Shown one piece after another: positions 58,121-60,703 of a DNA stretch of 64,000 nt (positions within the stretch are counted from its first letter, which is position 1; each line of letters begins with the position of its first letter). The stretch comes from Sulfitobacter sp. EhC04. GTDB lineage: Bacteria > Pseudomonadota > Alphaproteobacteria > Rhodobacterales > Rhodobacteraceae. The notes under the pieces are model-generated. The model did no database searches. It saw nothing but the letters and a program-made list of their open reading frames with translations, and was not told where the DNA came from. A program made the translations under genes and the position numbers. The DNA is taken from the NCBI RefSeq assembly GCF_001650875.1, contig NZ_LXYI01000009.1, forward strand, positions 248,001 through 312,000, in the 5' to 3' direction.

Positions 58121-58204
58121 TGGTGCGGGTGAAGGGACTCGAACCCCCACGCCATAGGCGCCAGAACCTAAATCTGGTGCGTCTACCAATTCCGCCACAC
58201 CCGC
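58121..58204 (-). tRNA. tRNA-Leu (TAG)
   Basis: 84 nt with encoded CCA (58121-58123). The acceptor stem is GCGGGTG/CACCCGC, the anticodon loop CCAGA-TTTAGGT-TCTGG gives TAG (58168-58170), there is a long variable arm CGCCTATGGCG, and the T arm is GGGGG-TTCGAGT-CCCTT. Type II tRNA as expected for leucine. Reads CUA and other CUN codons. Confidence 0.97.
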
Positions 58205-58367
58205 ACGCGGCCCCATTCGCGGCCTGATGCGCTGATTACCAAACCCGATGACGATAGGCGAGAGCAAAAAAGCCGCCCTGCCAGTCTAAAAAAAGGCAAG
58301 ACATTAACAAGTTGTTGTCATATGTTGGGGATAACCTGAGGCAGGTACAGATAAGAAAGAGACGCCC

Positions 58368-58889
58368 ATGAAACCGAATACGGTCGGGCGCGTAGGCGAC
58401 GAAGATCGCCATGCGGGCCAATACACCCCCTACGCCGTCCTGGATACAGGACTGGTCCAAGGTGCCATGTTGCTGACGCTTGACGGCGAAATTCCGGTGG
58501 AATTTCTCTCTGTCGGTGACAAGATCATCACCCGCGACACCGGTATTTCCAAGGTCAAACACATCCAGCGCAGCACCCGCGCCGTGCATCAGATCGGCCT
58601 GTCGGCAGGGTCGCTGGGCCATACCCGGCCCGAGCGGGACGCTATTCTAGCCGGGGACCAGATGATCCTGATCCGTGACTGGCGGGCGCGCGCGCTGTTC
58701 AATTCCGAACGCGCGCTGGTGGCGGCACGGACGCTGGTGGACAATGAGTTCATCACCGATCTGGGCACCCATGAGACAACGCTGTACCAGGTTTTCTGCG
58801 ACGGGCCGCATATCCTTTATGCCGACGGTCTGGAACTGGGCACTGCCGACGCCGCAAAAGCACGCGGCGCTGTTTTGCACGCGGCCTAG
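58368..58889 (+). CDS. Hint (hedgehog/intein) domain protein
   Basis: 173 aa. Hint domain is seen in LTLDGEIPVEFLSVGDKIIT, RDTGISKVKHIQRSTR, a later LILIRDWRARALFNSERALV-type region (DQMILIRDWRAR) and the closing THETTLYQVFCDGPHILYAD. No N-terminal Cys of an active self-splicing intein is present; such Rhodobacterales proteins are not known to splice. The stop codon TAG lies on the TA of an inverted-repeat element (58887-59047); before insertion it would have read TAA. Confidence 0.78.
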   Translation: MKPNTVGRVGDEDRHAGQYTPYAVLDTGLVQGAMLLTLDGEIPVEFLSVGDKIITRDTGISKVKHIQRSTRAVHQIGLSAGSLGHTRPERDAILAGDQMILIRDWRARALFNSERALVAARTLVDNEFITDLGTHETTLYQVFCDGPHILYADGLELGTADAAKARGAVLHAA

Positions 58890-59047
58890 GGTCAGGCCCC
58901 ATCAATGTCGCACCTCTGGCGCCAAAGCCGCGAAATTTCAGTGGTTTGAGCCGTGCAGCAACTAACGGGTTAATTGCAAATGGCTCACGCCGCTGAAGTG
59001 AAGCGGCTTTGACGCCAGCGGTACGACATGAATGGGGCCTGACCCTA
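58887..59047. mobile_element. MITE-like inverted-repeat element with TA duplication
   Basis: A 157-bp core (58889-59045) flanked by TA on both sides. Its ends are inverted copies: TAGGGTCAGGCCCCAT is shared exactly, and over the first 45 bases 40 are identical; the pairing continues with gaps to about base 66 (54 of 66). The rest of the core is a short non-paired centre. The size, TA duplication and terminal inverted repeats are those of a miniature element mobilised by a Tc1/mariner-IS630 type transposase, which is not in the window. It sits at the shared stop dinucleotide of two convergent genes, and the folded RNA may also serve as a terminator. Confidence 0.75.
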
Positions 59048-60703
59048 AAGCCCCAGCTCGCGAAAAACCTGCGGCAATTGCTCCGGCAGATCTTCCGCGA
59101 TCAACCCGGGGCCAAAGTGCCGCGCACATTCCACATGCAGATATACGGCCAGTTCAGCGACAGCAAACAGGCCCGCGCTTGTCTGTCCTGCCGCAAGACC
59201 GGCGATCATGCCCGCCAGCACATCGCCTGCCCCGGCTGTTGCAAGCCAATGCGCTTCACGGCCATAGGCCGCCACATGCACTGATGCGCCGCCTTCGGGA
59301 TTGGCGATGACCGTATCCACACCTTTCAGCAGGATGATGCAGCCCGCGCGTTTTGCCGCCTCTCGCACCACGTCGACCTTGGATTTGCCCTGTCGCTGCG
59401 ACGGGCCGAGATCTGGAAACAGCCTCTCGAACTCCCCTTCATGGGGCGTCAGGATGGTGCGGGCGTGGGTATGGGCAAAAAGCGCTGCGGGGTCTTGGGC
59501 AAAACTGCTCAGCGCATCGGCATCCAGCACCACCACCGGATCGCGCCAGTCACGGGGGCCTGCGCGGCGGCTCAATACCTGCTCGACCAGGGACCGCGTG
59601 CGGGGTGTCACGCCCATACCCGGCCCCATGCAGAAACCGGTCACCCGCGCGTCTGCGACATTGGCCAGCGGCACATCCTTTTTCAGGGGGCGCAGCATGA
59701 TCGCGTTCAATTGGCAGGCGTTCTCGATCAGCGCGGCGGGCGGGCAGAGCACGGTCACCAGACCCGCCCCGGTCCGCAAGGCAGCGCGGGCGGCAAGACG
59801 GGCCGCACCACCCTGTCCGACACCCCCCGCAAACACCGCCACATGACCGAAATCGAACTTGTGACCCGCGATACCGGGCTTGGCCATCACGGACTTCAAC
59901 CACATGCGCGGCTTGACGGCACGCCCGCCGAAGACGGGTTCAACCAGCCGGATGCACTCCGGATCCGGTTCTTCCATGACGGACCGCCGCCCGGGTGCTG
60001 CACCGCTCAGGCCGATGTCCACCGCGCGCACCTCACCACACAGGATCGGACCCATGGCAAGGTAATGGCCCGGTTTCGGGCTGTGGAAGGTCACGGTCAG
60101 GTCGACCGTGTTCATGGTTCTGGGCCATGCACTGCCTGACGCCTCGACCGCATCCATATCGACGGCAGTCATGCCGGTATCCAGATTCAGCCCCGATGGG
60201 CAATCGACCGCCATGCGTCTGATCAAGCGCGGCTGTTTCCACGCATTCATCGCGCCCACGTCCAGCACCTGCGCGACCGCATCGGGCACCGGGCGCGACA
60301 GACCGATGCCAAAGACCGCATCGATCCAGACATCCGGGCGCGGCCCGGTGAAAACGGTGGCGGTGTCCAGCGCAAGAACCGGCTCCTCCGCCGCCCAAAG
60401 GTCGTGATTGGCCTTCGCGTCTTGAGGCATCCGCGCGGGATCACCGAAAAGATGCACACGCACCGTCCAGCCCATCGCTCGCAACAGCCGCGCGATGACA
60501 AAGCCGTCGCCGCCGTTGTTACCCGGCCCGCACAGCACGACGGCGCTGCGGTTGCCTTCTGCCATCTCGGGCCATCGCGCCAGAATCGCATCCACCACGC
60601 CCTGTCCGGCACGTTCCATCAATGTGCGGCCCGTGACAGCGCCGCTGTCGATCTGGGCTTTTTCAAGGGCGCGCATCTGGCTGCTGCTGAGTAATTCGGT
60701 CAT
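59045..60703 (-). CDS. nnr: bifunctional NAD(P)HX epimerase / dehydratase
   Basis: 552 aa. The N-terminal YjeF_N epimerase (about 1-210; RTLMERAGQGVVDAILARWP, CGPGNNGGDGFVIARLLRAM) and C-terminal ADP-dependent dehydratase (about 265-540; GHVAVFAGGVGQGGAARLAA, VLDADALSSFAQDPAALFAH, TPHEGEFERLFPDLGPS, HWLATAGAGDVLAGMIAGLA) are complete. The fused enzyme repairs hydrated NADH and NADPH. The stop codon TAG lies on the TA of the inverted-repeat element; both its TA flank and the first G of the element form the codon. Confidence 0.95.
   Translation of the reverse strand: MTELLSSSQMRALEKAQIDSGAVTGRTLMERAGQGVVDAILARWPEMAEGNRSAVVLCGPGNNGGDGFVIARLLRAMGWTVRVHLFGDPARMPQDAKANHDLWAAEEPVLALDTATVFTGPRPDVWIDAVFGIGLSRPVPDAVAQVLDVGAMNAWKQPRLIRRMAVDCPSGLNLDTGMTAVDMDAVEASGSAWPRTMNTVDLTVTFHSPKPGHYLAMGPILCGEVRAVDIGLSGAAPGRRSVMEEPDPECIRLVEPVFGGRAVKPRMWLKSVMAKPGIAGHKFDFGHVAVFAGGVGQGGAARLAARAALRTGAGLVTVLCPPAALIENACQLNAIMLRPLKKDVPLANVADARVTGFCMGPGMGVTPRTRSLVEQVLSRRAGPRDWRDPVVVLDADALSSFAQDPAALFAHTHARTILTPHEGEFERLFPDLGPSQRQGKSKVDVVREAAKRAGCIILLKGVDTVIANPEGGASVHVAAYGREAHWLATAGAGDVLAGMIAGLAAGQTSAGLFAVAELAVYLHVECARHFGPGLIAEDLPEQLPQVFRELGL

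Follow-up and report, generated by a model that had tools for sequence, protein, structure and literature searches.

A one-armed MITE at the shared stop dinucleotide of two convergent Sulfitobacter genes, and the stop codons at which its family commonly lies

Introduction

IS711 of Brucella is a member of the IS427 group, and IS5 of Escherichia coli represents another group of the IS5 family. In extracts of PMC3281130, the IS427-group elements of Paracoccus (IS1248, ISPpa2 and ISPpa6) are given as 832-865 bp long with terminal repeats of 13-21 bp, a 2-bp target duplication (4 bp for one of them) and two overlapping open reading frames (a single frame in one). IS711, also named IS6501, measures 842 bp, has 20-bp imperfect repeats and two overlapping reading frames, and is reported to use the target YTAR with apparent duplication of TA and a preference for palindromic repeats (extracts of PMC2266754). 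The target motif of IS5 of E. coli is given as YTAR as well (extracts of PMC10359306). Among short mobile elements, the Correia/NEMIS and RUP MITEs are non-autonomous and span about 107-155 bp, RUP being attributed to an IS630 transposase that uses TA as its target (extracts of PMC2229807). MITEPye1 of Paracoccus yeei is an alphaproteobacterial MITE that forms a long stem-loop and shows a preference for intergenic DNA (extracts of PMC11578231).

The element described here lies in a 64,000-nucleotide stretch of Sulfitobacter sp. EhC04 DNA, referred to below as the window. It differs from the IS427-group elements as portrayed in the same extracts (PMC3281130) in measuring 161 bp and lacking a transposase, whereas its likely parent elements appear to resemble them in length (836-928 bp), in their imperfect terminal repeats, in the TA at both ends and in the two long reading frames seen in four of the eight examined. 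For IS711, the extracts of PMC2266754 mention neither a MITE derivative nor a stop-codon bias. IS5 of E. coli shares the YTAR target with the parent system but is a full insertion sequence, and the extracts of PMC10359306 hold nothing on stop codons. RUP depends on a different transposase family and no stop-restoring terminus is described in the extracts of PMC2229807, while MITEPye1 differs in its attribution to IS1182-family transposases (extracts of PMC11578231). Within the extracts of these papers and of PMC5896051, the literature search found a description neither of this MITE family nor of a stop-codon bias of such elements.

Results and discussion

The element and the two genes that it joins

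The features of the locus are listed below in window coordinates.

58368..58889, plus strand: Hint_2-domain gene, now ending at a TAG inside the left element end
58887..59047, no strand assigned: MITE, one-armed short form, 161 bp with the TA at both ends included
58887..58888, no strand assigned: left TA copy, which with the G at 58889 makes the TAG stop of the Hint gene
58887..58919, plus strand: left arm of the outer stem, columns 1-33 of the family fold A2
58920..59014, no strand assigned: arm 1, the arm kept in this copy, at about columns 34-129 of A2
59015..59047, minus strand: right arm of the outer stem, columns 237-269 of A2
59046..59047, no strand assigned: right TA copy, which joins base 59045, the outermost of the right repeat, in making the minus-strand TAG stop of the nnr gene
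59045..60703, minus strand: nnr-like gene (NAD(P)H-hydrate epimerase/dehydratase), whose stop is now a TAG inside the right element end

When the flanks are joined without the element they read gcggcc-TA-aagccc, so that the TAA of the Hint gene and the TAG of the nnr gene have the TA in common. With the element in place both genes stop at TAG and keep their full reading frames. A tRNA gene lies upstream of the Hint gene (58124-58204, minus strand; Rfam score 55.9 bits).

The terminal repeats of the 161-bp element match at 40 of 45 bases and at 54 of 66 over a longer span; repeat finding on the window returned 66-nt arms that are 82% complementary and separated by 29 nt, and 12 bases, GGGTCAGGCCCC, are present at both element ends in inverted orientation. 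The element with short flanks has a fold energy of -120.1 kcal/mol, whereas 200 shuffled versions average -60.7 (z = -13.65) and none of them folded as low. No open reading frame of at least 60 aa lies wholly within the 161 bp, and the element is too short for a transposase. Columns 130-236 of A2, which hold arm 2 and a mini-hairpin, are absent, leaving a single continuous hairpin. The element belongs to a MITE family, of which it is a one-armed form. Its exact sequence occurs once in its own genome, and its length is unique among the 57 paired copies shorter than 600 bp in the matches listed; a one-armed copy of 162 bp (L219) was found in another genus.

Inspection of the sequence bore out most of what the initial annotation had said of this locus: the coordinates, the TA at each border, the two TAG stops, the 40-of-45 repeat match and the sparing of both genes by the insertion. 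Its description of the element as MITE-like also holds, given the short length, the inverted terminal repeats, the absence of a transposase and the dispersed copies described below. Its further suggestion, that the inverted repeat supplies a ready-made bidirectional terminator, was not sustained, as no T-run follows the hairpin on either strand. An intrinsic terminator, a stem followed by a T-run, is not supported by the terminator scan either: that of 58300-59600 returned two sites (1.3 expected), none of them inside 58887-59047 on either strand. Comparison with known RNA families yielded, at or near the element, sub-threshold miRNA matches only.

Empty sites in relatives

Eighteen loci with relatives of the Hint gene were sampled (L054-L071), and both genes could be scored in 16 of them, L062 and L071 being left out. 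The Hint and nnr genes are convergent neighbours in all 16. The end pattern of the family, searched with up to four mismatches, was absent from all 18 loci. Seven of the 16 (L057, L058, L060, L061, L065, L066 and L067, the first four from Sulfitobacter) have an empty site with a four-base gene overlap, in which a single TA belongs to both stops, as in S. sabulilitoris (L061), where the site reads gccgcc-TAA-agccc. The remaining nine have Hint/nnr spacings of 2-155 bases; they include the closest relative (L054, 96% protein identity), which ends in TGA. The shared stop is thus common among relatives, and the element is most simply taken as the newcomer at this site. A second locus agrees: another copy in the same genome (L108) likewise joins two stops, and in its empty counterpart (L245), where the 402 bases of left flank are 89% identical, just one TA stands between a TAA and a TAG stop. 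Both the empty site with shared-TA stops and the TA target had been predicted from the window sequence.

A dispersed family of palindromic copies

Of the 62 genus genomes, 35 carry the end pattern TAGGSTCWGGMCCCATTAA with at most one mismatch, the element's own among them, and the control for this search gave no matches across the 62. Its own genome holds 32 matches, against none for the reversed pattern. An exact and slightly narrower pattern was found in 27 of 295 genomes of the taxonomic family (26 of 294 genera), again including its own, with no control matches. A DNA search of its own genome with the element sequence yielded just three credible places, because most copies there have another terminal type, TAGGCTCTGG; these were recovered by the end pattern.

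Among the matches listed, a list completed for six genomes, paired ends delimit 57 copies shorter than 600 bp in 11 genomes. For other genera, 20 places were sampled, a subset of the listed pairs (one pair in genome G199 falls outside the sample). TA stands at both ends of 50 of the 57 copies and is missing from one end of the other seven, in agreement with the expected TA duplication in other copies. Lengths of 265-267 bp account for 23 of these listed copies, and the others include classes of 306-311, 347-353 and 389-396 bp. Two copies with interiors unlike the family (L129 and L193) were retained in the counts as intergenic. Among 73 insertions, flanks are similar in one pair only (L104/L143, both intergenic), so the stop count reported below is not inflated by shared ancestry.

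Two pairs from another genus, of 1321 and 1438 bp (L221:1001-2321 and L222:1001-2438), were considered as larger parents and rejected, both being MITE copies broken by unrelated insertion sequences. From their motifs we take one of the interrupting elements to be like IS630 and the other like IS3. A 40-bp remnant (L229:1001-1040) consists of two terminal repeats end to end and lies at the stop codon of a called gene. Solo or truncated family ends occur in the window's own genome at C9:101011 (L048), where the end reads TAG at an apparent gene end, and at C19:35207 (L052, also numbered L113), where the end supplies a coding frame with its TAG stop.

Insertion at stop codons

Genes were called on joined, element-removed sites with a home-made, simple codon-usage caller. 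The background comprised 464 kb of the element's own genome (the window and 20 further stretches of this one genome) and contained 309 non-coding Y-TA-R sites, of which 50 are stops and three are double stops. One copy with short flanks (L169) was dropped, which left 56 classified copies, and removal of the single coding copy (L102) left 55 non-coding ones. L238 was scored by hand with its right partner, and in two of the stop calls the frame is short, at 46 codons (L101) and 68 codons (L230).

Among the matches listed, the 56 classified copies comprise 23 at one stop, four at two stops, 28 in intergenic DNA and one in a called reading frame, and 50 of the 56 joined sites conform to Y-TA-R. 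Stops thus account for 27 of 55 non-coding copies against 50 of 309 background sites (Fisher test, 3.9e-7). Because its stop position was the reason for selecting the window copy, the comparison was repeated without it, with a similar result (26 of 54, 9.1e-7). The proportion is 6 of 11 in the element's own genome (p = 0.005; 5 of 10, p = 0.016, when the window copy is excluded) and 9 of 16 non-coding copies in seven other genera (p = 0.0005; 9 of 17 with the one in a reading frame). L221, L222 and L229 were left out of these counts, and with all three the other-genera stops come to 11 of 20. Double stops are also enriched (4 of 55 versus 3 of 309, p = 0.012; 3 of 54, p = 0.045, when the window copy is excluded). 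After correction for flanking bases, the expected stop fraction is just 0.16-0.24. Stops are therefore a common site for the family, and the arrangement in the window is not a unique coincidence.

Much of this bias can be traced to position. Copies within 30 bp of a gene 3' end are in excess (34 of 55 versus 70 of 309), and within that distance stops make up 27 of 34 copies and 50 of 70 background sites, which is no significant difference (p = 0.27). Most Y-TA-R sites near gene 3' ends are stops, so target choice and purifying selection explain much of the bias, and additional targeting is not needed at this range. In wider comparisons an excess is present: 27 of 39 versus 50 of 98 within 60 bp of a gene 3' end (p = 0.039), 27 of 42 versus 50 of 130 within 100 bp (p = 0.003), and 22 of 33 versus 33 of 95 more than 200 bp from any gene start (p = 0.0014). 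Thus the stop preference is largely due to the Y-TA-R target, and a factor beyond target and filter may contribute to the remainder.

A candidate parent transposase

Elements of 836-928 bp are bounded by ends with 0-4 mismatches to the MITE end pattern, and TA stands at both ends of 13 of the 14 pairs longer than 600 bp. The two long reading frames noted above belong to L117, L125, L128 and L149 (836-853 bp). In four 928-bp copies from one genome (L130-L133), only the second frame is among their three longest. These copies exceed the 853-bp form by ~75 bp and their transposase translations diverge from it in the middle, yet they are dispersed; judged from lengths and translations, this would fit movement in trans.

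The frames of one element, identical in L128 and L149, matched PF13340 (DUF4096), PF01609 (DDE_Tnp_1) and NF033580 (transpos_IS5_3); ORF2 passes the NF033580 cut-off, and ORF1 alone falls just under it (104.6 of 110). Relatives of this transposase at E <= 1e-40 occur in 29 of the 62 genus genomes and at two places in the window's own genome. The parent is therefore likely to belong to the IS5 family with traits of the IS427 group, the group being assigned from traits and family models. A likely parent transposase, the last of the expectations raised by the initial annotation, thus appears to be present, with matching ends on IS5-family elements.

The family fold and its hairpin modules

Alignment A2 contains 21 copies of 266-267 bp. 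Its consensus forms an outer stem, two hairpin arms and a mini-hairpin, with 89 pairs and 97.8% of cells paired. Double-change pairs number 34 versus 22.6 in shuffles (none of 500 reached this value), and the covariation score is 0.336 as compared to at most 0.067 in slid controls; further pair types are not raised (63 versus 64.2; 429 of 500 shuffles). Of the 89 pairs, 79 are found on both strands, and their cells contain 31 G-U and 20 A-C combinations. The A2 strand folds slightly better (-115.2 versus -107.7 kcal/mol) and holds 10 private pairs with 49 G-U cells. A function of one RNA strand was considered and rejected: the orientation of copies relative to the stop is unbiased (15:16) and the shared pairs have no clear excess of G-U over A-C, with the slightly better folding of one strand standing on the other side. 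Because the fold is mostly the same on both strands, the main indication is of a DNA palindrome that selection or self-correction maintains, rather than of a single RNA.

Length variants (29 copies, among them L100, L102, L105, L108, L109, L152, L153, L160, L167 and L169) carry 60 inserts of at least 20 bp, mostly palindromes of 38-46 bp. Forty-six inserts follow columns 76/77, 134/135, 161 or 212, which are unpaired in the consensus; five follow columns 190-192, at a distance of one to three columns from an apical loop, and the other nine occupy further positions in L166, L167 and three copies from other genera that align poorly. Different loops can hold one and the same module type. Its five own-genome matches with up to three mismatches all lie inside MITEs, and the module was rejected as an independent repeat. 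The covarying fold, largely alike on both strands, and the hairpin modules placed mostly in loops are new here.

Origin of the insertion

The observed TA borders, empty sites, dispersed family, matching IS ends, target bias and stop counts are very probably best explained by a MITE that is moved in trans by an IS427-like transposase of the IS5 family, with a Y-TA-R target, TA duplication and a purifying filter; the mobilisation and the filter are what we infer. An IS5-family transposase with IS427-group traits would act on the non-autonomous element, insert it at Y-TA-R and duplicate the TA. As the terminal repeat starts with G, a TA copy and this G would make TAG for a gene entering from either side. 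A Y-TA-R read in frame is necessarily a TAA or TAG stop, and an insertion at it therefore leaves the gene with a stop; convergent genes with stops on a common TA would both keep theirs. Selection would purge insertions in coding and 5' regions; since most Y-TA-R sites near gene 3' ends are stops, about half of the surviving copies would then be expected on stops. The window copy, which lacks the second hairpin arm, would have arisen by this route.

It is very improbable that the element was never mobile and that its palindrome formed at this very site, either as a terminator for the convergent genes or through local duplication. The single occurrence of the exact window sequence in its genome would suit such an origin, but the homologues found at unrelated sites, the resemblance of the ends to IS ends and the dissimilar flanks of all but one intergenic pair speak against it, and the empty sites already contradict it. 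Retention at gene ends because the hairpin works there, in transcription termination or mRNA 3'-end protection, is unlikely. Such a role would fit the very stable hairpin, the conserved covarying fold, the excess of copies near gene 3' ends and the slightly better folding of the A2 strand with its private G-U cells. It is weakened by the absence of both a T-run and a terminator call at the element, by the intergenic position of half of the classified copies, and by the strand-symmetric pairs and balanced orientation, which leave no RNA strand clearly favoured. Active targeting of stop codons or gene ends by the transposase, for example via terminator structure or translation, is quite unlikely. 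It would account for a stop fraction above every null tried but the 30-bp-restricted one, and for the recurrence of stop sites in other genera; against it stand the lack of excess in that restricted comparison and the IS-like copies longer than 600 bp, none of which lies at a coding stop (0 of 14, 12 of them with less than 200 bp of one flank).

One further reading seems rather doubtful: stops might be a safe harbour to which the family is adapted, the Y-TA-R target, G-initial ends and a nearly strand-symmetric branched hairpin acting together so that gene ends, and shared convergent stops among them, become its favoured home in the long term. Length variants would gain and lose palindromic modules, mostly of 38-46 bp, in or beside loops, as if a second process handled whole hairpins.

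Conclusions

The family provides a counted example of how the target and first base of a transposon permit entry into stop codons with the reading frame intact. The same rule is predicted for other TA-duplicating elements that combine a Y-TA-R target with G-initial ends, and annotators should be prepared for apparent TAG stops that are part of mobile DNA. With the covarying fold and the modules in its loops, it becomes possible to test whether selection or self-correction during replication maintains such palindromes.
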